Assembly: GCA_028291515.1 (NCBI GenBank)
Contig: JAQGHU010000050.1
Span: 1 to 64,000, forward strand
Direction: 5' to 3'
DNA length: 64,000 nucleotides
DNA from: Schlesneria sp.
GTDB taxonomy: Bacteria > Planctomycetota > Planctomycetia > Planctomycetales > Planctomycetaceae
Shown here: positions 13,078 to 28,360 of the stretch, piece by piece
Layout: each line of letters opens with the position of its first letter
Position numbering within the stretch: the first letter of the stretch is position 1
Translations under genes and position numbers: made by a program
The notes under the pieces: generated by a model
Told to the model about the DNA's origin: nothing
Databases searched by the model: none
What the model saw: only the letters and a program-made list of their open reading frames with translations

Positions 13078-16000
13078 TCAGATCGTTTCCGGCGCACGGC
13101 GATTGATCCAGGCGATGATTAAAGTCACCACCACAAATGTCATGAACGCACAGCCATTGAGGGGACTTGGCAAGACGATAAAGCCCAGAATGCTGAGAGC
13201 GGCGATTGCGATCAACAATTGCTGCGGGAGACGGCCCGACATCGAACTGCTGCGAACCGCCAGAGCGATGCCAATCCCGATCGCCAGCCAGATCCCCGAC
13301 CAGACTAGATTCAATCCCCAGCGAACGGTTTCCTGAGGCCTGACGGCCAGCGCCAGCTTCGGATCTCCCCCCGCCTTGGAGAACACCAATTTCTTTCCGG
13401 TCGTGGGCAAGTCAAATCCGAGCGACAATCCACCGGTTGGCATACGCATCTGTGCGCCCCCTGCAGGGTTGTTCCCCGCGATGACGGGCTCACCTGCATT
13501 TTGCGCGAATAGGTTACCGTTCACATTCGCCAATCCGATCGAATCCTCGACCCACGCGTTGGGATCTCCCTTGAAGCCTGCCGACGGAATCATTCGATTT
13601 CCCTGTGGCTGGGACGAAGTCGCACCGGGGACGAACCCACCGTATTGTGTGTAGCCACGCGGACCGTCAGGCCCCGAACCCGGACCGAGGTTGCCACTGC
13701 CGCCGACATTGCCAAATTGACCACCCAACTGGCCGACGAATCCCCCTTGTCCGCCTTGCTGACCATTAATCCCGCCACCAAATCCGCCGCCCATGGCTTG
13801 AGGATTCACGGGGTTGGCCATCCATAATCCTTGTTGGCCGCCGAAACCTTGTTGCCCACCCTGCGGCTGTTGAGCGATTGGTTGCCCATCTTGCGGGTAA
13901 GTGACAGCCCCACTGTTTGGATAGGTCGCATTGGCCCGATTTGGTTCGGCCGTTACTCGATATCCCAGTCCGCCACCAGGACCTGAGCCATCCACCATCG
14001 GCCCGGGCTGTGCCATCCGACCTCGCCCCAGTTGCTGAAGCTGTCCTTGTTGGCCCTGCTGACCGGCCTGCTTTTGAGCGTTGATGTCATTGTTCAACGC
14101 ATCGATATTCACTCCGTTTCCAAGCTGCAGACTTTGTCGAGTCTGTTGGCCAGCCACATTTCCCTTCGCGGAAGCAGGCTTACCCCCATCCTTAGTCGAT
14201 TCCGGTGCCTTCTCGGCATTCTTGTTTTGCAATTCGAAAGAGAATTCATTCGATTCGCTTTTTGTATTGACTTGCAGCCCGTTGCCTGTGTTCGAAAGCA
14301 AGAGCGAATTCGAGTTCAATTCCACGTTCGACAATTCCGTCTGCGCCTGACTGAAGAAACTGTTCCCAGTGAACGAACTATTGAGCTGAATTCCGCGGAC
14401 CGTGCTGCCAGATTGATCAATAGCAATGCCACTGGCTATCGCCGGCAATTGTTGTTGATCTGTCTGGATTGATTTCTGAAGATCTGACAGACGTTTCAAT
14501 GCCACATCACGCTGTTGAACAAAATCATGATCACCACCATTGACGCTGCCTACCGATTGACTCAAATGCGTGGCGTTGTCGAGAGCCAATCCAATCTGCT
14601 TCATATTGTTGGTCGCTTGCGCACGTCGACCTTCGCCTCGAGTGTTGTACGAGTAGTTCTGCTCGACAAACCCCAACAGTTCGGACAGCTCTTGCACCGC
14701 GGCCTTCTGGTAGAGCAAATCTGGGGCATCATCGGACTGCAGCGTCAAATTGTTACGGACGGAGGCCTTCAATGGCTGCGCATCGAGATCGTCCGGCAAC
14801 CACACTGTCCACCGCGTCCGCGCGACGGGGATTCCAAAGTCGGGATCGTCCTGCTGACTGACAACGATCGGAGCCGCGATATCAACCTCTTGTCGCAGCA
14901 GGCGAGCGGCCTTGGGGAGTCCCGATCCCACGCGTCCGCGCCAGATGATCCGGACGGGAAAAGCCAGGCTGGCGGCACTGGTTTTGGGAAGCGCGATCAG
15001 TTGAATCGTGTCGTTCTTCCGTTTGGTCGTCACAGCGCGTGAGGGGACGTTGCCAACGAAGACGGACAACAATTCGGCATTCTCGGGCATCTTCAGCGCC
15101 AGGAACTGGCGCGAGCGATTCTTGATGGTGTAGATCGCCTGTCCGCGGTACGTCCCGTCCCGGCTGACGATCGTCGTCAAATCTGCCACGTTGACCGAAG
15201 CAGGGACACTCGCCGTTTGCGCAAACGTCTGCAGGGTCCAGCGCGGAGCCGTCGACAATTGCTTCACTCGGACCAGTTCGGTCGCTTGATCGACCAGCGA
15301 CTGATCAACCACGACCGGCACATCTTCGCGTTGGACCGATTCCGTCAATTCCGGGGAGGCCGAAGTCAGTTGACTCTGCGACAGATTAATCAGCAGGACA
15401 TACTGTCGTTGCCCTTCCACAGGCGTCGTGACGCCGTTCCCCTGTTCAAAGACAATCGCGGGGGCGACAACTTCTTTTGAAGCGGGCGGTAGTGTGGCAA
15501 CAGCGGCCACGAAATACTTGCCGCTGACGGGCGTTCGCAACCAGATCGTCCAGCGAGTGCGGCCTTCGCCCGCGTCGACGTGCGTCGTTTCGCGAATTCC
15601 AGTGCCGGTAAATTCCAACTTGCCCGCCAGAAAGCTGGGGGTCGTAAACACCAGCGAATCTGTCGTCGCCGAGTCGATCTGCCACTGCAACGCCAGCGTA
15701 TACACGACCGCGACATCCGTCACCGAGACCATCGCCAACCCGTTGGCCGTCAATCGTGGAGTCGCACGTTGCAGCAGGATCTTGATGGCATCTGGCGCAC
15801 TGACTGTCGATTGAAACGCAAATTGCACAGGCAGGTCTGGCCGAACGGCTTTCAAATCGCCACTCACGAGTCCCGCATCGACTGAGCGCCAACCGTCAAA
15901 GCGATCGAGCGTCCCGGTGAATCCTTCGTCCAACCAGACGGCTGCCATCGAATTCAGCTTCGTGGCATCGGTGGGATGAGGAAACACGACCTCTGCGGCC

Positions 16001-19000
16001 GTTGTCGCATTCTCTCGTGGCACCGTCCCCGACAACACGACTTCGGCAATCCCCAGTCGAGGTCCATCCAGATCAATCGTCAGCGTTGTTTTGTCATCTT
16101 GCTTCCCCAACGACCAGTCGTGCAGCCCAGTCGCTTTGACATCCAGCACGACATAGCCCGCTGGCAGAGCGATGTTGAACGACGACCGCGGGGCTCCTGT
16201 CAGGTTGTAGACCAAACGAGTCGTCAGTTGTTGCTTGCGCTGCATCACAAAAGCGGCCTGCTGGGCAGTGACATTAGCCTGAGACTCCTGTCGAGTGACT
16301 CGCAGGCTGAGCGTGAAGGGCCGCTTGGAGAATCGATAGGCCAACTGCGGTGCGACGTTCGGGCGACTCACGGGAACCGACGTTGTGAATTTGTCGGCAT
16401 CAATCTGCGAGAGCGATTCCACTTTTTCTGCTCGCAGCGTGAATTGATTCCCCGCGAAGACGGCAACCTGGCCAATCTCGTTGGTGACTTCCAGAGGAGC
16501 GAGTTGCGGCAGGTCGACCACAACGGCTTCCGTGCCGACGCGCGTATCCAGAAACGCTTCCACGGTCAGTTGCGTCGCATCCGAAACATTTCGCCGGAAG
16601 ATGACTCGCAACTTGCGAGCGTCCCCTTCACCCTGCAATTCCCAACCACCGACATCCGATCCATTCACGGCCTGCAGTCGATAGGTGGCCGGCAGCGACA
16701 ACGTCACGTCCGCGACGCCCCCTTGTCGGACTCGATATTGAAAACCGGTGCTGACGCGAATGCCCGCATCCGTCAGCGTGATCGCCTGCACAGAATCGAC
16801 GTGAACGACGGCTGCGGCGGCCCCCTTGGCTTGTTCCGGCTGCCAGGCAATCGTGAGATCGCCTCCCTTATCGACGGGAACCTCGATCGATTGAACGTCG
16901 CCCGTGGTCACTCTGCGAAAGATCGTCGATGAGCCATTGATACGGACGGACAGGTCTTTTGACGGCAACGTGAACGACAACTTCCCTGTCGGCACCGGCA
17001 GTAACGGCACTGTGACTGCTCCGGTTGTCCCGGAAAGACGAGCCGACACCGAGAACACGAAATCGAGGACGTGCAAGCCCGGGCTGGAAATCGCGACCTT
17101 GGTACACACACCATTTACGATCAGGGCGGCGTTCTTGCCATCCAGTTTCGCATCGCGCGCCGCGACCGCGCCGATCGGGAGTTCGACCTGCAGTTGCCCG
17201 TCCACATAGCTACGGATCGCATACCGCGCGGTCACTTCCACGGTGGAATCATCAGGCGTTTTTTCATTGGCGACAACCTTGGCTGAGTAGAACGCAGCCA
17301 CAATTCCACCGTCAACGGGAGCAGTCCCATTCAATGGTTTGTTCGGATACGCCTGTCGATACAACTCGACAAACTTCTCGTAGGGAAGCAGGATCTTGTC
17401 GGCGGCCAGGGGGTCTGTCCCAGCGTCAAAGGGGACAATCAACGTCCCTTCCGGCCGGACTGGTACCGCGGCCTGCTGAGCCGGTTCATTCGGTTGAGCG
17501 TTTGGCTGTGCCGACGCATCGGCCCCGAACAGCAGCAAGGCTGCGACGCAGGCTCCGATCACAGGTCCGCTCTTCGTCGGACGATTTCCTGGGGTCCAAC
17601 CACAACAAGTGACACAACAGGTCTCGACGCACCGCGCGATCGCCACCAGCAGCCACAGCCCACAGGCCACGATGATTCCGAAGAACAGACCATCCAAGAC
17701 CACTTGCAATCCCTGTGGAACCAGCGGCAACAACGCCAGCGGCAGTGTCAGACCGAGGGCTGCGATCGTGGCTTTCGTGATGCAACTGGAACGACGCAAG
17801 AACCAACCGATAAGTCCGACAAGTGCCACTAGAAAGACGCGGACGGTCGCACCGGAACGCTCATCAACATAACCAAGGTTCAACGCGATGCCGCCGCGAG
17901 CGGGATCGGATCCGGCATAACGAAACGTCTTCTGCAAACTTCCTTCCGGCGGCGTCAAGTCAATCGCCAGCGACAGCAGGCCAAGCCGTTCTTTGCTGGC
18001 CGGGAGTGCTGGATCGGCGAGCTTGTCGCGAGGAATTCGCTTCTCATCCGCTTTCTTCTCGTCCGCCTGTTGAGCGACATCCAAATTATCCTTCCACTGC
18101 TGTTGAGGCTCTTGCGGAGCATTGTCGGCGGCTGGAGGTTCGCCACGGGGAAGATCCGCGAGGCCGGTAGCCAGCCCCTTGCGTCTCGGCGGTGTGTCAC
18201 TTGGCTCGATTCTGAATTTCTCTCCCGACTTTTGAGGAGTACGATTTCGAACTGTATGCGACTGAAGTCCGGCTTGAGGCAAAACAACTGGGGAATCGGG
18301 ATCCACTTGAATCGGGAGGCCAGTAGAATCAGAAGCCATCGGGTCTAGAACGGCTCCTTTGTCATACCTCTCTTCTTTGACGTATGCGTCCTCTACCATC
18401 TCTGAATAGTACGAGGCATTGCTGCGTTCCTTGCTGGCGATTGAATAGACGAAGCCGAAATAGCCGACCCCCAGCAGCAACAACAAGGCCACGCTGGCAA
18501 CGACCGTACCTTGTCCTTTGCGATAGGCCAACATCAACAGTGCGATCGCTCCCAGCGTGACGATGACCGCAAAAATCTGCCATCCCAGTTCGCTCACGGT
18601 TGGGACTCGCACACCCGTGTTCAAGCGGCCCAAGATGCTGGTTTCGTCCAGATGTTGTTCTGGCTCAAGCGGACCTGAGCTACTGATCAACAACGTCTTT
18701 GACGGATAGTTCAGTTGCCAGTGCTGATCGAGCACATCGACTGGCTGCGATGTTCCTTGACCCGTCTGCACTGACAGTTCAGGAGGTGCCTGTTCAAACG
18801 TGCCGAACCGCGTGAGAGCGGGGACATCGGATCGATAGAACAATTGCAGTTGCCGTGACTGCCCCACATGCGGCCCACCTTGGGGAGTCGGCACGGCGGC
18901 GCTGGCATTCAGTGGAACGAGATAGATATCGCCCTGGCGACGGACTTCCACCGGCTGGCCATCGACCAACGTCGCCCATAGCACGGTCTCTTTCGGCAGG

Positions 19001-21501
19001 ATCACTCGCAGCCCCTGAACGCCGACGGCGATCAATTGAAATGTCGCGCGATGTTGCAATTCGCCCGTGCGTCCCAGCACGCTGGTGACACTTAAGACTG
19101 GACACACGGCGGACGGAACGGGCAGCTTGTCGAATCGTTCTTCGGTCAGCGTGACCTTGGCTCCGGCGGTTGCATTGCGGTAAACAGCGACAATCCGCTC
19201 TTTCGGCGCGTAGTACAGGTTCGGCAGGTCCAGCGGATCGACTTCCACCAGCGGCGTGCCGTCTGCGGCCTTGGCATCGATCGTGATCCGTTGCTCACCA
19301 CCCGCTTCGATCGCCTGAAATCCGTTCTGACGTTCAGCATCAATAAATCGCAGTTGCGGCACGACGAACTCTTTGGCGGCCCCGCGCGGAAGGTCGATGT
19401 CGCAGAATAGTGGCACCACTCCACGGGAGCGTTGATCGAACTGCAGTGTCCAGATCCGATCGCCCGCCTGAATTGCTCCCGGCTTCTGCTCGATGATCTG
19501 CCGATCCGGGCTTTGGAAACGAATCGCGGTCCCGGCCGATTCAGGCAACGAGACTCGAAGTGTTCGAACGCCGCCCCCTTGTACTTCGACCATCGCCTGC
19601 ACAAAGGCATGCATCGTCTGCGGATCCAGCCGACCGACAGTGATCGTCTGAGCCGAGATGCGCGAGGGCTTGCGAGTCACCTTGAGTTGACCGCCATAGC
19701 GAGTGTCCTGGGTCCGAAACCGCAGTCGTTCGAAATCAGCACTCAGCGGGACCGTGTCCAACCCTTTCAACTCTGAAGCCGCCAGATCCAGATCGTCGTC
19801 CCCGCGGATGACGATCGTTCCTTCGTTTAAGCTCGACTGCGGCAGAAACAGTTCTGGAATCGCGACGGTGATTGGGGTCGACTCCACCGGCCACCCTTCG
19901 ACCTCACGACGCAGAACCAGATGAATCGTCCCAGTCCCTTCGGCGGCCAGCGGCGGGTCGAGCAGAATGCGTAGCTGGTTGACTCCCGGTTCTTGTGACA
20001 GGATCTGCCACTTTAAGGCGGCTTTGTCACGCTCAGCGCTGATCACATTCCAATCCGCGGGCAGCCTGACATCCAGTTCGAAGAGGGGCGCGAACTGCGT
20101 CTTGACGGTGATGATGACCTGCAGGTCAAGGCCGGTGGCGTTGACATCCAACACTGCGGCCACAGCGGTCTGAACTTCGCGCTGCTTCGGTTGAGTCGTC
20201 AGCCGCAACACGAAATCGGGCTGCCAGACATCGAACCGCAGGAATTCGGTCGCATTGAACTTCGACATGTCATCGGGCATGTCAGCAGTCGGCTTCTGTC
20301 CTTGAGTGGCGCGTCGAACACCTTCTGTCTCTTCCACGCGCAATCGCACATCGGCGGGATGTTGCACGAGCACCTGGCCAATGTGCGAGGTGACGTTGGC
20401 AATCGTCAGCGGTGGCACCGTCCAGGGCTTACCCGTCTCAATCGCCATCACACCCTTGAACGAGATCTTGCGAGTCCCGTCGAAGGCCTGACCAAACGTC
20501 AGTGCGATATTCGTGCGACCTTTGTCGTTCGGATCGTCGGTAAGGTCCCACGATTCCAGTCCGGTTGATTCCACGTCAGCAATTTCCAACTTCGACGGCA
20601 CGGAAAACGACAAACGATCGACGGGCTTGCCGAAGACCTGCAGGTTGGTCAACGCGTGCCAGGTCACTTCGCCGGGGGCGACATGCAAACCATAACCAGT
20701 GGTCGCAAACGTCAAAGCATCCGCCGCATTTTCCGCAGCGCGATCGGTCACACGCAACTGAATCCCCGGAGCACCACCGATCGCGACAGTGTAGTCGGCC
20801 GGCTTGTCGAGCGGAGCAGGGCGTTCCAGTTGCAACGCGCCGACCAGCAGACGCTTGCCCGCGGGCAACGTGAGCGACAGCGTGCCACTGGGCGCACGCA
20901 ACAGCGAAAATGCAGCAACCTGATCACTTCCCTGGCTGGTCAGTTCCGTCGACAGTTCTAGCTTGAGAACGTGCTTGCCCGCTTCATTGCTGAAGAGCGA
21001 GAGGGAACCATCCTGATTGCGCCCCAACATTGCCGGCTGATCATCCAGCGTCGCCTTTTCGATCGACAGGCGTTGCGTCGGAAAAATAGTGGTCTGCCAG
21101 TCGCCCACAAACTGCGACAGTTCGGCCGTGACCGTCATCAGAAGTTGGTCACCACTGACTCGTGCCTGATAGTTGCTGCTCGTCAAGACGATCGGCAGAT
21201 TGGGTCGTGTTTTGGCGTTCGTTTTCGCCAGACCGATCAGTTCATCGAACTTCTTTCGCGTCAGCATCACGCCGCGACGGTCGTGCTCGACAACGACATC
21301 CAGCTCTTCGGCAGGAACGAAGATTCGGCGACCTTCGGTCAGTTCCGTGACCAGATCGACCGGTTGTGCCGTAGCGGATTGAACCGCCAGCAGAACCAGC
21401 CACAACGCAGCACCACAAATCGCTAACCAGCGCTGAACGACAGGCCGCGTTCCATGCGAGACTGGCATCATCAGGCGGCATGTCATCCGTTGATGACTCA
21501 T
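13078..21501 (-). CDS. Giant (2807 aa) secreted membrane-anchored protein, apparent fusion of two module-bearing halves
   Basis: I do not recognise a named family. A signal peptide ends near residue 45 (QSATA-QP). Half one (about 46-970) is beta-rich. Two membrane segments lie near 973-1021, then a charged Pro/Lys linker, then more hydrophobic segments near 1224-1315 including CCVTCCG. Near 1310-1329 GACVAALLLFGADASA-QP reads like a second signal peptide. Half two restarts the same pattern as half one: IVPF (about 1356), LLPYEKFVELY (about 1371-1381), FYSAKV (about 1402). Near 2292-2307 is RRAQATNNMKQIGLAL, close to the DUF1559 signature. Residues about 2470-2660 are Gly/Gln-rich, and the C-terminus (about 2722-2807) has three membrane helices. 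AAGGA lies seven bases before the ATG. It follows the 1126-residue paralog by 43 bp, so the two form an operon. Confidence 0.85.
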   Translation of the reverse strand: MSHQRMTCRLMMPVSHGTRPVVQRWLAICGAALWLVLLAVQSATAQPVDLVTELTEGRRIFVPAEELDVVVEHDRRGVMLTRKKFDELIGLAKTNAKTRPNLPIVLTSSNYQARVSGDQLLMTVTAELSQFVGDWQTTIFPTQRLSIEKATLDDQPAMLGRNQDGSLSLFSNEAGKHVLKLELSTELTSQGSDQVAAFSLLRAPSGTLSLTLPAGKRLLVGALQLERPAPLDKPADYTVAIGGAPGIQLRVTDRAAENAADALTFATTGYGLHVAPGEVTWHALTNLQVFGKPVDRLSFSVPSKLEIADVESTGLESWDLTDDPNDKGRTNIALTFGQAFDGTRKISFKGVMAIETGKPWTVPPLTIANVTSHIGQVLVQHPADVRLRVEETEGVRRATQGQKPTADMPDDMSKFNATEFLRFDVWQPDFVLRLTTQPKQREVQTAVAAVLDVNATGLDLQVIITVKTQFAPLFELDVRLPADWNVISAERDKAALKWQILSQEPGVNQLRILLDPPLAAEGTGTIHLVLRREVEGWPVESTPITVAIPELFLPQSSLNEGTIVIRGDDDLDLAASELKGLDTVPLSADFERLRFRTQDTRYGGQLKVTRKPSRISAQTITVGRLDPQTMHAFVQAMVEVQGGGVRTLRVSLPESAGTAIRFQSPDRQIIEQKPGAIQAGDRIWTLQFDQRSRGVVPLFCDIDLPRGAAKEFVVPQLRFIDAERQNGFQAIEAGGEQRITIDAKAADGTPLVEVDPLDLPNLYYAPKERIVAVYRNATAGAKVTLTEERFDKLPVPSAVCPVLSVTSVLGRTGELQHRATFQLIAVGVQGLRVILPKETVLWATLVDGQPVEVRRQGDIYLVPLNASAAVPTPQGGPHVGQSRQLQLFYRSDVPALTRFGTFEQAPPELSVQTGQGTSQPVDVLDQHWQLNYPSKTLLISSSGPLEPEQHLDETSILGRLNTGVRVPTVSELGWQIFAVIVTLGAIALLMLAYRKGQGTVVASVALLLLLGVGYFGFVYSIASKERSNASYYSEMVEDAYVKEERYDKGAVLDPMASDSTGLPIQVDPDSPVVLPQAGLQSHTVRNRTPQKSGEKFRIEPSDTPPRRKGLATGLADLPRGEPPAADNAPQEPQQQWKDNLDVAQQADEKKADEKRIPRDKLADPALPASKERLGLLSLAIDLTPPEGSLQKTFRYAGSDPARGGIALNLGYVDERSGATVRVFLVALVGLIGWFLRRSSCITKATIAALGLTLPLALLPLVPQGLQVVLDGLFFGIIVACGLWLLVAIARCVETCCVTCCGWTPGNRPTKSGPVIGACVAALLLFGADASAQPNAQPNEPAQQAAVPVRPEGTLIVPFDAGTDPLAADKILLPYEKFVELYRQAYPNKPLNGTAPVDGGIVAAFYSAKVVANEKTPDDSTVEVTARYAIRSYVDGQLQVELPIGAVAARDAKLDGKNAALIVNGVCTKVAISSPGLHVLDFVFSVSARLSGTTGAVTVPLLPVPTGKLSFTLPSKDLSVRINGSSTIFRRVTTGDVQSIEVPVDKGGDLTIAWQPEQAKGAAAAVVHVDSVQAITLTDAGIRVSTGFQYRVRQGGVADVTLSLPATYRLQAVNGSDVGGWELQGEGDARKLRVIFRRNVSDATQLTVEAFLDTRVGTEAVVVDLPQLAPLEVTNEIGQVAVFAGNQFTLRAEKVESLSQIDADKFTTSVPVSRPNVAPQLAYRFSKRPFTLSLRVTRQESQANVTAQQAAFVMQRKQQLTTRLVYNLTGAPRSSFNIALPAGYVVLDVKATGLHDWSLGKQDDKTTLTIDLDGPRLGIAEVVLSGTVPRENATTAAEVVFPHPTDATKLNSMAAVWLDEGFTGTLDRFDGWRSVDAGLVSGDLKAVRPDLPVQFAFQSTVSAPDAIKILLQRATPRLTANGLAMVSVTDVAVVYTLALQWQIDSATTDSLVFTTPSFLAGKLEFTGTGIRETTHVDAGEGRTRWTIWLRTPVSGKYFVAAVATLPPASKEVVAPAIVFEQGNGVTTPVEGQRQYVLLINLSQSQLTSASPELTESVQREDVPVVVDQSLVDQATELVRVKQLSTAPRWTLQTFAQTASVPASVNVADLTTIVSRDGTYRGQAIYTIKNRSRQFLALKMPENAELLSVFVGNVPSRAVTTKRKNDTIQLIALPKTSAASLAFPVRIIWRGRVGSGLPKAARLLRQEVDIAAPIVVSQQDDPDFGIPVARTRWTVWLPDDLDAQPLKASVRNNLTLQSDDAPDLLYQKAAVQELSELLGFVEQNYSYNTRGEGRRAQATNNMKQIGLALDNATHLSQSVGSVNGGDHDFVQQRDVALKRLSDLQKSIQTDQQQLPAIASGIAIDQSGSTVRGIQLNSSFTGNSFFSQAQTELSNVELNSNSLLLSNTGNGLQVNTKSESNEFSFELQNKNAEKAPESTKDGGKPASAKGNVAGQQTRQSLQLGNGVNIDALNNDINAQKQAGQQGQQGQLQQLGRGRMAQPGPMVDGSGPGGGLGYRVTAEPNRANATYPNSGAVTYPQDGQPIAQQPQGGQQGFGGQQGLWMANPVNPQAMGGGFGGGINGQQGGQGGFVGQLGGQFGNVGGSGNLGPGSGPDGPRGYTQYGGFVPGATSSQPQGNRMIPSAGFKGDPNAWVEDSIGLANVNGNLFAQNAGEPVIAGNNPAGGAQMRMPTGGLSLGFDLPTTGKKLVFSKAGGDPKLALAVRPQETVRWGLNLVWSGIWLAIGIGIALAVRSSSMSGRLPQQLLIAIAALSILGFIVLPSPLNGCAFMTFVVVTLIIAWINRRAPETI

Positions 21502-21544
21502 TGTAATATCCTTATTCCAAAGCCATTTCCAACGTCAGATCGCG

Positions 21545-24500
21545 TTACACTTCATCGCTATTTGGCGGACCGGGGTCCGCTGGCGGCGAAGGCGACGTAG
21601 GAGGGCTTGATATCGGAACGACGGGAATTGGGGTCGGAGCGGCAACCACCTCAGGTGGCCGTCGGCTGAGCAGGGCGTGGACCACCCAGATAGCAACCAA
21701 GGCTGTCAGACCATAGACCGAGACTGCCAGGCCGTGAATAACCAGATCGGCATCCTTCAGGGCATAGGTACAAGCACAGAATGCAGCCAGGATCAGCAGC
21801 GTCAACTTGTTTTCCCACGAGGTGTTTCGCAGCAGGAAAGCAATCGCAATGATCGCTCCACTGACGATCCACGTGTAATACGGCAGATGCCACCAGCCGA
21901 ATCCTTGAACCGCATCGCGACCTGCCAGACTGGAGTACTGGTAACGATGCCCTTCCACTGGAAATTCGAAGACCCCGCCTGCATCCGTTCCAATCCAGGC
22001 ATCCAGATCCTGTGTCCCTTGATGGCCGGACCGTCGCTTGCGAAACAAGTCGCGCAATGAGGTTCGTGTCTCGCTCGTGAAATTTTCTGGCGTCCCGATC
22101 AATGCGTATTCATCGGGAATCCAGACGCCCAGCCGCAGTTGCTGAATCGCGACCGCTTTGGCCTCGTACCCGCCGATGATTGGCAGCCTGAGCAACAGTG
22201 ATCCCCCTGCCGTCTGAAATGCATCGGGCTTAACCGCCATGCGGAACAGGATCGTCAGCGAAAAAGGCTCGTCAGATGATTTCGTGCGGGCCACGTTGAT
22301 GAAGTACGAAGTCCACAGATCGCGGGCTTTCAGATCCGCCTTCTCAAGCGCGACTGGCTTGCGATCCACGAGCACTCCCAATGGCTCGGCCGAGGTCGGC
22401 AGATCCACACGCAGCCGCTGACGTTCGCTGGACTTCATCACGTAACGAGCCCGGTACGTGGCAGTGCTGGCTTTATCTAAGACGACTTCCACGAGGGCCT
22501 TGCTGACGACGGTTTCGACGACCCCTTGCACGTCATATTTGTTGGCGGACAGCTCCAGCTTCACCGGCTGCTTGAAGTAGCGATAAGCGACAAATCCGTC
22601 CTGCGCCAGATACTGCAGTTCACGCACATCAATCGGCTCGACATCGCCTCCGCTGGCGGTAGCGGAAACAGAGAGGGCTCGATCTTTGAGTACGGTCATT
22701 TCACCGATTGTCCGCGACAAGGTGATCTCACGCTTCCCCTGCGGTCCATCATCTTTGTCATACGGATCCAGCGCGCGAATCGCTTCAATCACGCTCTTTT
22801 CGCTTTTCGCTTCGGTATCCGCCGTCGGACTCAAATCGTAGGTGATCTGGAAGGGCTGTGACCCCAGCACTTCACGCTGCATGATGACGGTCCAGGTGAC
22901 CCAGCCGTCAACAGCCTTGGCGGCGCGACTCTTTTGCTTGATCGGTGGTGCGGAGCCTCCGGCGGTCGAACTGATCTGAACCTTGTCGGCCAATGCTTCG
23001 GGAACAGAGAACCGGAACGTGTCGATGCCCGCGTACTCGATGACATAATTCAGATTGGTCGTGACCTGCACTTGTCCCTGCTTCACGTCCGCGCGAGTTC
23101 CGATGGACGCCGTCAGTCGAGTCGGCTTGCGAACGGTTCGGACAGGGATCTCCACCGGCCTACGGTTGTATAGCCACGACGAGACCAGTCGTGCATTCGC
23201 AATCGCCTCGGCCTGCGGTGATGGATCGGGCTGAGCTCCCACCAACTTTTCGGCATCGGTGATGACGTCGATCGATTCTGGTGCATAGACCTGAATCTTG
23301 CCGTTTTCCAGTTCTGCTCCAACCGGTTCGAGTGTCGGGATCGTCTGATCCGTTTTCTCGGCAGTCGGATCGAGCGATCGGAACGCGAACACCGTGATCG
23401 CCAGCGTCCCAAGTGTCTTTTCACGCAGACTGACCGACAGTGTTGTCTTGTCCGGCGAGACATCGAACTGCTTCATGCGATCGCACACGACATTTTCAAC
23501 CGTGATATCTGCGGGCAACTTGTACTTCACTTCGAACACGCCAGCGCGATCGATCGTGAAGTTCGCCACCGACCGCAGTCGCAATTGATCGTCGCGGAAT
23601 ACCAACTGCGATGATTGATTGACAATCAGACGTGGTTCGACAGGCTTCGCCAAGACCTTCAGATGAAACGCCGGGCTGTAGTACTTGAAGTACAGACCTC
23701 CAGGTCGCTTCAATCGAGCGTCCACTTCGCTGTCATCTGTCCGCAGCAAGCCAGTCTGCTCTTCCACGGTCAGCGTCAGATCGCCACCCTGTTTCAAGGC
23801 CACCGTGCCACTCTCGCGAATGACATCGAGAGCATGAATCCCATAAGCGGTCGCCCCTTCCATACCGGCGACATCAAATGCTTCCGTCGGCGCGGCCTGC
23901 TCGGTGTGCACTTCGAGCGTCACCTTGCCATCCAGTCGGCTGAGCAGTTCGATCGTCACCAATTGGCGGTTGTCTTCCTCGACCGCTTTCCACTCTTTCA
24001 CTTTGGCATTCGAAGTGATGTCCAGAATCCGCTGACCTTTGGGAACAGCGATCCGGACCTTTTCAATCTGGCCTCGCAAAACTTCGTAAGTCAGCCAGGC
24101 GTCGGTATGAACCAACCCGTCTTCAACCGTCACCAGAGTCTGATTCGTGACGCTCGCCAGCAGTTCCATATCCGGCTTCGTGCCGACTCGAGGATGCCAG
24201 CGGGCTGAGATCTTGTCGGTCGACCCAATCGTCGCCTTGATCCGAGTCTCTTTCGCCGCGGCCGCAATCGGTTCACTGACCAGCTTGGGTTTCAATTCAA
24301 TCGTCTGATCGGCATCGGGAATCACGAGGTCGAAAGTGGTAATCCCGACGGTCGGGACATCCATCTCCAGACTCTTGCCTTCGGGTGCCGTGCGAACCCG
24401 CGCTGTCAGCTCGATTTGAATCTTGTGTTCACCCGGAGTCGGCAGCAACAGCGAATACGTTCCGTTACCGGTTCCTCGCAGCAAGACCTTTCCCGAGTCC

Positions 24501-24925
24501 GAGGTGATTTTCCCGATCGCCGCTTCGCCGAACTTGATCGGCACCTCAGCCCAGCCTTTGTCGAGAGCCTGAACGACCAGTGTTGCCGAGACCTGGGCAA
24601 CATCCTTTTCGACCTTGGCGACGTAGGTTGCCGAAGTGATCACGCCCGAAACCGGCGGCTGATCGGTCTTGCGCAGACCGTTGCCAACCGTCGATTCAAT
24701 CAGCTTGAGGTACTCGGCGTATGGAATGAAGACGCTTCCATCCGGCTTTTCAAAGATGGATTTCAGGCTTTTGAACGGCATGTAGATTAGCCGTTCGACT
24801 GTTTTTGCCGGCGGCGCGCCTGCTGGCTTTTCGCCCTCCACGGGCTGTCCAAAGGCAGCCGAATAACAGAGCGTCAAACTGCTGATCGCAACGGCAACAA
24901 GTCCAGAGTGCCGAATCGCTTGCAT
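21545..24925 (-). CDS. Large (1126 aa) secreted membrane-anchored protein, paralog of the giant downstream gene
   Basis: Signal peptide MQAIRHSGLVAVAISS... with cleavage near AFG-QP (residue 26). The N-terminal module has YMPF (48-51), FIPYAEYLKLI (66-76) and ITSATYVAKV (96-105), matching the order and spacing of the module found twice in the downstream 2807-residue protein. A long beta-rich middle follows. The C-terminus carries about three membrane helices (WIVSGAIIAIAFLL, LTLLILAAFCACTYAL, HGLAVSVYGLTALVAIWVV) and a Pro-rich tail. Domains are therefore mostly outside the membrane. AAGGA precedes the ATG by nine bases. Unnamed family; an envelope structural or scaffold role is only a guess. 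First gene of the two-gene operon. Confidence 0.85.
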   Translation of the reverse strand: MQAIRHSGLVAVAISSLTLCYSAAFGQPVEGEKPAGAPPAKTVERLIYMPFKSLKSIFEKPDGSVFIPYAEYLKLIESTVGNGLRKTDQPPVSGVITSATYVAKVEKDVAQVSATLVVQALDKGWAEVPIKFGEAAIGKITSDSGKVLLRGTGNGTYSLLLPTPGEHKIQIELTARVRTAPEGKSLEMDVPTVGITTFDLVIPDADQTIELKPKLVSEPIAAAAKETRIKATIGSTDKISARWHPRVGTKPDMELLASVTNQTLVTVEDGLVHTDAWLTYEVLRGQIEKVRIAVPKGQRILDITSNAKVKEWKAVEEDNRQLVTIELLSRLDGKVTLEVHTEQAAPTEAFDVAGMEGATAYGIHALDVIRESGTVALKQGGDLTLTVEEQTGLLRTDDSEVDARLKRPGGLYFKYYSPAFHLKVLAKPVEPRLIVNQSSQLVFRDDQLRLRSVANFTIDRAGVFEVKYKLPADITVENVVCDRMKQFDVSPDKTTLSVSLREKTLGTLAITVFAFRSLDPTAEKTDQTIPTLEPVGAELENGKIQVYAPESIDVITDAEKLVGAQPDPSPQAEAIANARLVSSWLYNRRPVEIPVRTVRKPTRLTASIGTRADVKQGQVQVTTNLNYVIEYAGIDTFRFSVPEALADKVQISSTAGGSAPPIKQKSRAAKAVDGWVTWTVIMQREVLGSQPFQITYDLSPTADTEAKSEKSVIEAIRALDPYDKDDGPQGKREITLSRTIGEMTVLKDRALSVSATASGGDVEPIDVRELQYLAQDGFVAYRYFKQPVKLELSANKYDVQGVVETVVSKALVEVVLDKASTATYRARYVMKSSERQRLRVDLPTSAEPLGVLVDRKPVALEKADLKARDLWTSYFINVARTKSSDEPFSLTILFRMAVKPDAFQTAGGSLLLRLPIIGGYEAKAVAIQQLRLGVWIPDEYALIGTPENFTSETRTSLRDLFRKRRSGHQGTQDLDAWIGTDAGGVFEFPVEGHRYQYSSLAGRDAVQGFGWWHLPYYTWIVSGAIIAIAFLLRNTSWENKLTLLILAAFCACTYALKDADLVIHGLAVSVYGLTALVAIWVVHALLSRRPPEVVAAPTPIPVVPISSPPTSPSPPADPGPPNSDEV

Positions 24926-26764: not shown

Positions 26765-28360
26765 ATGGATTTTATCGCTGCGACTTATCGGCTGACCTGC
26801 TCGGCTGCCGATGTCGAACGCTTGAGTCACGATATTGCGCTCGAACAAACCGTAGAAGTCCCCGACGCACTGATCGCGTGTTCCGACCTGCGCGAAGCCG
26901 TGGTCGGTCGAGTCGGTTCGATCTCCGCTGTCAGTTCTGCAAATGGACGCAATCCATCAGAACAGTTTGATGTCCGAATTGACTATCCCGCGGATCTGGC
27001 GACAGGTCTGGGCGCGCTCATCAACTTGATCTACGGCAACATTTCTCTGAAGCAGTGTATCCGCCTGCGCGATCTGCAGTTGCCCGATTCCGTGCTGCGG
27101 ACCTTTCGCGGCCCCAATTTGGGAATCGAGGGACTGCGGCAGATCCTGGGTGTCTACGGTCGGCCATTGCTGGCAACCGCGTTGAAACCACGAGGATCGA
27201 CGCCAGTACACCTCGCCACGCGAGCCAACCAGTTTGCGGCGGGCGGCGGTGACCTCGTGAAGGACGATCACAATCTAATCGATCCGTCATTCGAAGCCTT
27301 CTGCGAACGAGTCACACTGTGTCAGCAGGCCACGACCGCCGGCAGCCAGGAATCGGGACGGCCGTGCCTGTATTTTCCAAATCTGGCAGGACCGACGGGT
27401 GAACTGGAACGGCGAGCCGAGTTGTTGGTGAAGCTTGGGGTTCGTGGAGTCCTGATCGCCCCGCTGATCGTCGGACTGGATCACGTTCGCCACCTGGCGG
27501 ACCGCTTTCCGCTGGCGTTCATGGCACACCCCACATTCGCCGGTGCCTATTTTCACGACGGAACACATGGTGTTGAACCTGGCCTGCTGTTGGGAACACT
27601 GTTTCGTCTGGCAGGCTGCGACGCCACGATTTATCCCAATCTTGGCGGACGCTTCTCATTTACCGCCGACGACTGCCGCCAGATCGATCGCTTGGCTCGA
27701 GCACCGCTGGGTGACCTCCGCTCGGCCTGGCCGTCCCCGGCAGGCGGCATGTCCTACGATAACTTGGAGCAAATGGCGAAAGATTGCGGCGAAGACTCCA
27801 TCTTTTTGATCGGCGGCGCACTTCTTGGTGACTCGGCCGATCTAAAGTCGAGCACTGCGCGATTCCGCGATCAGATCGCCGCGCTGTTCCCAGCCTCCAA
27901 GTCGGTCGCTCCATCCTTCAACGAAGTCGTTTCGGCCTGCGAATTACCCGCCCCTGGGCTGACGCAACGACTGTTGGAACATCTCCGCTTCGTCAACAGC
28001 TTCCACTGGGACGGTCGAGAGCCCGTCGCCTACAAAGCCAGCGATGAGCTTCCCTTTCGCAACGTCAGCCGGACCGAGTTGATCGGCACCGCCGGCGAGC
28101 AAACGGCGTTTGATTTGAGATACTTCGAAATTGACACCGGTGGTCATTCCAGCCTGGAAAAGCATGTCCACACTCACGTCGTCATCGGCGTGCGTGGCAC
28201 CGGCAAACTGATCAGCGGAGAGAACCGAGTCGACATCAAACCGTTCGATGTGGCCTACGTCCCACCGCTGCAAGTGCATCAACTCACGAATGAATCGAGT
28301 GAGCCGTTCGGGTTCTTCTGCATCGTCAATCACGATCGTGATCGGCCGCAGAAGCCTTAG
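26765..28360 (+). CDS. RuBisCO-like protein (form IV type) fused to a C-terminal cupin
   Basis: 531 residues. Residues 1-395 are RuBisCO large-subunit-like: LATALKPRG (K141 at the position of K175), GGGDLVKDDHNLID (K166, the carbamate lysine position, then D-D-H169), FMAHPTFAG (H255), YPNLGGRF and the phosphate-loop-like LIGGALLGDS. The usual KDDE is KDDH and I see no loop-6 lysine, so it is not expected to fix CO2. KDDH-type variants are, from memory, known among RuBisCO-like decarboxylases of apionate catabolism; other enolase/isomerase roles are possible. Residues about 445-525 form a cupin: KHVHTHVVIG (H467, H469, H471) and PLQVHQL (H505). GGAAG-type site (CGGAAG) lies upstream of the ATG. 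Confidence 0.88.
   Translation: MDFIAATYRLTCSAADVERLSHDIALEQTVEVPDALIACSDLREAVVGRVGSISAVSSANGRNPSEQFDVRIDYPADLATGLGALINLIYGNISLKQCIRLRDLQLPDSVLRTFRGPNLGIEGLRQILGVYGRPLLATALKPRGSTPVHLATRANQFAAGGGDLVKDDHNLIDPSFEAFCERVTLCQQATTAGSQESGRPCLYFPNLAGPTGELERRAELLVKLGVRGVLIAPLIVGLDHVRHLADRFPLAFMAHPTFAGAYFHDGTHGVEPGLLLGTLFRLAGCDATIYPNLGGRFSFTADDCRQIDRLARAPLGDLRSAWPSPAGGMSYDNLEQMAKDCGEDSIFLIGGALLGDSADLKSSTARFRDQIAALFPASKSVAPSFNEVVSACELPAPGLTQRLLEHLRFVNSFHWDGREPVAYKASDELPFRNVSRTELIGTAGEQTAFDLRYFEIDTGGHSSLEKHVHTHVVIGVRGTGKLISGENRVDIKPFDVAYVPPLQVHQLTNESSEPFGFFCIVNHDRDRPQKP

Follow-up and report, generated by a model that had tools for sequence, protein, structure and literature searches.

Ribophorin I/Ost1 and the N-domains of M1-type aminopeptidases (6s7o_E, 6ezn_A, 4gaa_B) contain beta-sandwich domains, and the ectodomains of integrin alpha (3fcs_A, 4nen_A) are long chains of beta domains that end at the membrane. 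In bacteria, extracytoplasmic function (ECF) sigma factors and zf-HC2 anti-sigma proteins are described together with YfbK-type von Willebrand factor A (VWA) proteins (PF13490, PF12450, PF00092, PF12034), and signal peptidase processes the cytochrome b/c1 polyprotein FbcH of Bradyrhizobium, a single chain, at a signal peptide within it, a precedent for which our literature search returned no confirmation. Each of these shares a trait with the subject of this work: two adjacent genes, A and BC, encoding giant exported proteins in a 64,000-nucleotide stretch of Schlesneria sp. (Planctomycetaceae, Planctomycetota; positions 1 to 64,000 of contig JAQGHU010000050.1), which we call the window. FbcH and BC are unrelated proteins, and BC would yield two giant paralogous ectodomains, B and C. 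Genes of the ECF/VWA kind precede the giant gene or gene A in some relatives, but they were not seen at the window's locus, and neither A nor BC matches these families. Our reading, held tentatively and at somewhat below even confidence, is that A, B and C are subunits of one envelope assembly with a non-catalytic scaffold or binding role, that BC is cut by signal peptidase I, and that certain relatives couple the set to a VWA protein, mostly together with a sigma factor.

Three paralogous modules in genes A and BC

The open reading frames (ORFs) of 2807 and 1126 residues reported by the first-pass annotation agree exactly with the ORF data, and its description of them as an operon of two giant exported proteins with one module present three times is supported by profile matches, gene order and strand. 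The features concerned are as follows, with models from AlphaFold2 (AF2).

21545..24925, minus strand: gene A, 1126 amino acids (aa), with a signal peptide, a PY motif, a beta-rich ectodomain of five units, three membrane helices at the C-terminus and a proline-rich tail (ORF and AF2 model)
13078..21501, minus strand: gene BC, 2807 aa, paralogs B and C fused (ORF and hhalign)
24686..24796, minus strand: N-terminal signature of A, residues 44-80, IYMPF..VFIPYAEYLKLI (columns conserved across A, B and C relatives)
21214..21333, minus strand: N-terminal signature of B, residues 57-96, IFVPAEELDVVV..VMLTRKKFDELIG (conserved columns)
17347..17475, minus strand: N-terminal signature of C, residues 1343-1385, LIVPF..ILLPYEKFVELY (conserved columns)
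21887..24658, minus strand: ectodomain of A, units R1-R5, residues 90-1013, with borders at 252, 430, 601 and 802 (AF2 strands; hhalign of R2, R3 and R4)
18607..21366, minus strand: ectodomain of B, residues 46-965 (alignment of 41 sequences and hhalign)
14512..17514, minus strand: ectodomain of C, residues 1330-2330 (alignment of 41 sequences; AF2 mean predicted local distance difference test score, pLDDT, 83.5; predicted template modelling score, pTM, 0.41)

Both genes lie on the minus strand, 43 bp apart, with AAGGAT a short way ahead of each start codon; the shared strand, the gap and the conserved order support an A-BC operon. A promoter and terminator scan returned 3 and 13 sites, respectively, against 4.2 and 12.5 in shuffled sequences, which is about chance.

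Each module copy begins with the signature that had first drawn attention to the repeat (IYMPF, YAEYLKLI and TYVAKV in A; IFVP, KKFDELIG and NYQARV in B; LIVPF, YEKFVELY and FYSAKV in C), and the opening part of this signature forms a pattern of conserved columns in relatives (examined in 14 rows per alignment). BLASTP aligned the giant with A at E-values of 2e-21 (N half) and 8e-19 (C half). When family profiles (49 sequences for A, 41 each for B and C) were compared with hhalign, A matched B over 866 columns (E 3e-64), A matched C over 862 (E 2.1e-62) and B matched C over 859 (E 5.3e-60), all with probability 100. This is the comparison that the first-pass annotation had named as its check, and it shows that the threefold claim was understated: homology covers the whole ectodomain and reaches beyond the N-terminal signature, confirming A, B and C as one paralogous family with full-length similarity.

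Each module in turn looks like a row of five beta-rich units of about 170 aa, of which the middle three are detectably homologous. The AF2 model of A (mean pLDDT 82.8, pTM 0.46) consists of alternating beta domains, and we placed the unit borders from it. Units 2, 3 and 4 of A match one another in register (hhalign E 8.4e-12, 1e-11 and 1.8e-10), with reversed controls at 0.038 or worse for all ten pairs, and units 1 and 5 are weakly similar to the others (best E 0.0014). The corresponding values for units 2-4 are 8.2e-10, 2.5e-6 and 6.2e-7 in B, and 8.7e-18, 3e-7 and 1.2e-6 in C, the reversed controls covering A only. Between modules, units in like positions matched at 2.1e-10 or better in 15 of 15 comparisons, and units 2-4 in unlike positions at 5e-5 or better in 16 of 18. 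Because unit 3 of A fits unit 2 of C (3.1e-23) better than unit 3 of C (2.2e-13), and because of the cross-position matches, one-to-one positional descent of the middle units is not clear-cut.

By eye, the models of A and C share their strand order, including four unusually long strands. In Foldseek, the leading groups common to both are integrin alpha, OST1/ribophorin I and M1-type aminopeptidases, with ITIH1 for C; 6s7o_E was matched by A at E 4.1e-9 and 6ezn_A by C at 4.3e-9, while 4gaa_B was listed for A only. The TM-scores are low (0.05-0.31 in the listed rows, 0.12-0.31 for ribophorin I and the M1-type domains), and the search therefore points to tandem beta-sandwiches and nothing more specific; beta-sandwich is what we take the models and hits to indicate. 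Unlike ribophorin I and the M1 enzymes, A, B and C are bacterial, triplicated and composed of many more domains. A PDB sequence search with the A, B and C profiles gave nothing significant (best PsaE, E 0.011, taken as chance).

Among 77 Planctomycetaceae loci, which are partly redundant (at least three contigs are double, L037/L063, L042/L100 and L040/L121, and L131 and L132 are one genome), A is followed by fused BC in 47 and by separate B and C in 2 (L069, L078); 27 are too short downstream, and in one (L117) neither is adjacent. L083, counted among the short ones, has no BC within 4 kb after A. The genomes of L117 and L083 carry a B-type sequence on another contig, in the latter as a piece at the contig edge only. 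B and C occur as separate adjacent genes at L046, L048, L069, L078, L118 and L182, which refines the earlier view of a giant made of two halves into a B-C fusion. The A-BC set is widespread and its order mostly kept; L154 and L158 hold extra copies and are exceptions to the order.

Gene A was found in 93 of 294 genomes of the phylum with a single-protein search and in 97 with a profile (one, G261, at E 8e-4 only). Within the window's family all 17 genomes sampled have it, against none of three genomes of another family (f2) of the same class. The assignments of the counted genomes to Planctomycetaceae and Planctomycetota follow from named records among them. In the phylum of an Opitutia record (G294, Verrucomicrobiota), 23 of 145 genomes match, 4 of them weakly (E above 1e-12). 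The closest named record is an uncultured Schlesneria metagenome-assembled genome (L059), whose A is 97% identical to that of the window. A deeper search of eight of the 17 family genomes found a second, diverged operon, A'-BC', in every one of them, and the named relative G296 has it too; in the window's genome it is located as follows.

About 200.6-210.7 kb of the same contig (L170), 176 kb away: second operon, A' of 1149 aa and BC' of 2220 aa

At this locus (L170, 6712-18710) A'-BC' has a gene for inositol monophosphatase on one side and, on the other, a BacA/UppP gene in convergent orientation. A monophosphatase-like gene stands before A' in 7 of 9 loci (L168, L170, L171, L172, L174, L175, L177), identified by Pfam in L170 only and elsewhere by reading the N-terminus.

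A quick maximum-likelihood tree of 77 modules from 28 loci and the window (one short module dropped, L175, 334 aa) was supported by the Shimodaira-Hasegawa-like approximate likelihood ratio test (SH-aLRT) only. A, B and C form separate clades in it (SH-aLRT 92, 99 and 99), the second operon included, with long-branch warnings that extend to the second-operon modules; giants without a gene A (A-less giants) form their own clade (SH-aLRT 99). The module sequences suggest that the triplication into A, B and C is old.

Membrane segments and the junction between B and C

The first-pass annotation had each protein exported and ending in membrane helices. Hydropathy predictions agree, with two amendments: membrane-anchored describes the proteins better, and the giant has additional membrane segments in mid-chain.

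24848..24925, minus strand: signal peptide of A, about residues 1-26 (hydrophobic 8-26 by hydropathy; family comparison)
21668..21886, minus strand: C-terminal membrane helices of A, residues 1014-1086 (AF2 helices, hydropathy)
18448..18582, minus strand: predicted membrane helices of B, residues 974-992 and 1000-1018 (hydropathy)
17635..17853, minus strand: predicted membrane helices between B and C, residues 1217-1289 (hydropathy)
17509..17592, minus strand: internal signal-peptide-like segment before C, about residues 1304-1331, ..GACVAALLLFGADASA|QP (possible signal peptidase site)
13105..13311, minus strand: predicted C-terminal membrane helices of C, residues 2731-2799 (hydropathy)
13432..14511, minus strand: Q/G/N-rich low-complexity stretch, about residues 2331-2690 of BC (by eye from the translation)

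At the junction, the membrane helices of B are followed by a short loop, a hydrophobic core and an A-x-A-type site. The loop (giant residues about 1286-1313) is Cys-rich and predicted to be cytoplasmic, with at least three Cys in 22 of 44 rows. Under a permissive site rule, for which there was no control, the internal segment passes in 40 of 44 relatives. A strict (-3,-1) rule finds a site in the internal segment of 28 of 44 relatives; the N-terminal signal peptide of B scores 31 of 44 and the N-terminus of A 22 of 49. Among the control membrane segments, the six of BC scored 2, 3, 4, 1, 4 and 0 of 42-44, and the two of A scored 0 and 1 of 49. We infer that BC is a polyprotein that signal peptidase would cut at the internal site. 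Three points count against this. The site rule is home-made and not SignalP; the window's own internal segment passes the permissive rule and has no site under the strict one; and any (-3,-1) site is found in 33 of 44 internal segments, 36 of 44 for B, 36 of 49 for A and, in the other membrane segments, 3 to 28 of 42-49, a much weaker contrast. The difference between the internal segment and the others therefore rests on site quality. Internal signal peptides counted in giants of other lineages (22 of 26, 14 of 19, 6 of 9 and 3 of 4) came from a different, laxer rule that finds sites elsewhere in GC-rich chains and has no matched control, and we do not use them as evidence.

The alternative that survives best is that BC stays one chain, in which the internal segment would be a membrane anchor returning the chain outward and the fusion would tether B to C permanently. 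The topology requires a membrane segment at this place either way and, together with the window's copy, 15 other rows (16 of 44) fail the strict test, while the laxer count separates the segments poorly. However, strict sites are about as frequent in the internal segment as in N-terminal signal peptides and far more so than in other membrane segments, and the separate C ORFs of L078, L118 and L069 have a hydrophobic segment ahead of the ectodomain (residues 90-155 of the longest ORF, whose true start is unsure). An uncut BC is in our view unlikely, while keeping a real share of the probability.

Upstream genes in relatives and the possible role of the proposed assembly

Of 64 loci from other Planctomycetota, 40 could be judged, the remaining 24 being cut off upstream; a YfbK-type VWA gene lies directly upstream in 15 and within 4 kb in 1. 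In these Planctomycetota outside the family the gene precedes 8 of 8 judged A-less giants, compared with 8 of 32 other judged loci. The Verrucomicrobiota set has 13 loci, one of them cut off upstream; 7 of the 12 judged have the gene, all of them among the 9 that lack A and none among the 3 with A, and it is not found in the named records L124 and L126. These counts come from a VWA profile built from six of the loci that it then scores, and L160, where an ECF-like gene lies divergently and the VWA match is weak (44 bits), was counted as having none. Ten of the 15 direct cases in Planctomycetota and 7 of 7 in Verrucomicrobiota also have an ECF sigma gene. Eleven of the 23 VWA partners were run in Pfam; vWF_A, VWA and YfbK_C were present in all eleven, and zf-HC2 at E 0.01 or better in eight (over the cut-off in six). 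The start of a metal-ion-dependent adhesion site (MIDAS), DxSGS, is found in 22 of the 23 partners, the full simple pattern in 14. One partner (L184, 9214-13029) has in its linker a Secretin-family stretch below the cut-off (22.9 vs 27.5 bits). Such neighbours suggest that some relatives monitor the assembly, or control its expression, across the membrane; in the case of the window this would hold by analogy only. One relative (L027) has a gene for BatA, of the aerotolerance BatA/BatD system, upstream of A. We dropped this link as a single case: among the loci scored, the BATA profile matched only its own source, and A and BC gave no BatD match in Pfam.

According to the reading we favour, each subunit would be exported and would combine a conserved N-terminal PY motif and a rod of about 900 residues, made of some five beta-sandwich units, with membrane helices at the C-terminus. 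B and C would be translated as one chain, with the internal signal peptide bringing it back into the export machinery, so that both ectodomains would end on the same side, periplasmic or outer, and signal peptidase I would separate B from C, giving a fixed 1:1 supply. The subunits would serve the large envelope of planctomycetes as a scaffold or a binding structure, without catalysis, and in some relatives a membrane VWA protein, mostly with an anti-sigma zinc finger and an ECF sigma gene, would sense or control the assembly. That there is one assembly is suggested by three old paralogs, mostly ordered, two of them from one chain. We regard as doubtful the full version, an envelope machine of Planctomycetota and Verrucomicrobiota made only of one beta-sandwich module repeated at two levels (three subunits, five units in each), with two subunits cut as a polyprotein at a conserved internal signal peptide and with the state of the machine relayed, in some of the lineages that have it, to an ECF sigma factor via a membrane anti-sigma protein that bears a VWA domain.

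Several findings weigh against the favoured reading. The VWA gene is absent at 24 of the 40 judged loci of other Planctomycetota. In the window's family the link was found at none of 61 type I loci (16 of 77 being cut off upstream) and none of nine type II loci with the upstream side visible, and YfbK_C had no match at all in 11 of 17 family genomes; an ECF-like match lies within 7 kb upstream in 3 of the 61. Because the VWA link is absent from the family's loci, the sensing role is not transferable to the window, whose genome has an ECF and VWA pair on another contig (L128) with no giant in the surrounding 16 kb examined. Four A-less giants whose N-termini were read have no PY motif there, and in the second operon the motif is degenerate. 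Gene order is not universal, as distant two-gene versions (L024, L025, L026, L028) have the more A-like gene second. The arrangement of domains in A and C is not fixed by the models, since their pTM values are low (0.46 and 0.41). Finally, five polar positions of C are invariant in 41 sequences (N2039, S2041, N2128, Q2132, N2251), and these residues may keep a functional site.

Searches for known families returned no match over the cut-off for A and BC in Pfam and NCBIfam (best sub-threshold PF07596 at 16.9 bits, PF05939 at 12.6 and NF003153 at 14.5), nor for A' and BC' of the second operon or for the giant at L022, which has no gene A beside it; for L046, where B and C are separate genes, the search was in NCBIfam alone and likewise gave none. 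The PF07596 stretch is the following.

14575..14640, minus strand: short DUF1559-like stretch in C, residues 2288-2309 (Pfam PF07596, 16.9 vs 23.3 bits cut-off)

We rejected membership of DUF1559/SBP_bac_10, as the match covers 22 residues only and falls below the cut-off. The VWA partner at L181 (4476-8333, Verrucomicrobiota) has a DUF1559 start at residues 134-164 (27.8 bits, over the cut-off), after its most hydrophobic segment (from 114); the stretch in C, itself below the cut-off, is similar. In the available portions of the open-access literature, queried in wording of our own choice and including PMC7406223, nothing pointed to the A/BC family. Residues with a conservation of at least 90% are chiefly G, P, W, L and R, and the enzyme motifs searched for (HExxH, GAMEN, CxEQ) are absent from A and BC, which makes a role in binding or structure likelier than an enzymatic one.

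Binding could also mean that A and BC are a surface adhesin or receptor, with a ligand-binding, integrin-like rod in place of a structural scaffold, a distinctly unlikely alternative. Integrin alpha ectodomains are among the best Foldseek matches, and the VWA partners of relatives have the MIDAS-type start. Yet the listed integrin alpha rows have TM-scores of 0.08-0.15 and share only a generic chain of beta domains; unlike integrin alpha, A and BC have no DxDxDG calcium motif and several predicted membrane helices per subunit, and the DxSxS strings of BC (residues 164 and 2362) fall outside any VWA domain. A machine that handles lipid or cell-wall precursors is improbable. A BacA/UppP-like gene is next to the end of the second operon in 5 of 9 loci (L168, L170, L172, L175, L176; Pfam in L170 only, otherwise from the N-terminus), but its orientation is convergent, it was not seen in the other four, and the eight window neighbours searched have no BacA/UppP-like domain, nor any sigma, zf-HC2 or VWA domain. 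An enzymatic reading, along the lines of M1 aminopeptidases or of alpha-2-macroglobulin, would account for the Foldseek matches to M1 N-domains and alpha-2-macroglobulin-family chains and for the invariant polar residues of C, but the matches are limited to generic beta domains and both readings were dropped as highly improbable for want of HExxH and GAMEN and of the thioester motif CxEQ.

Surroundings of the locus and its meaning

The neighbours of A-BC look unrelated to it: a TPR gene lies divergently upstream, a HAD-type gene follows on the same strand 211 bp past BC, and an FKBP gene is found farther away. Elsewhere in the window, 26765-28360 on the plus strand encodes a RuBisCO-large-like protein with a C-terminal cupin fusion (Pfam PF00016, 69.4 bits; Cupin_2, 37 bits).

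The envelopes of planctomycetes are unusual, and many of the large proteins in them have no assigned role. The A-BC set is widespread in these bacteria, the members tested match no Pfam or NCBIfam family over the cut-off, and the set is a well-defined target for gene knock-outs. If the internal signal peptide is cut, BC would be an uncommon bacterial polyprotein, and, thanks to the sigma and VWA genes linked to the set in relatives, what the assembly may sense can be put to the test.

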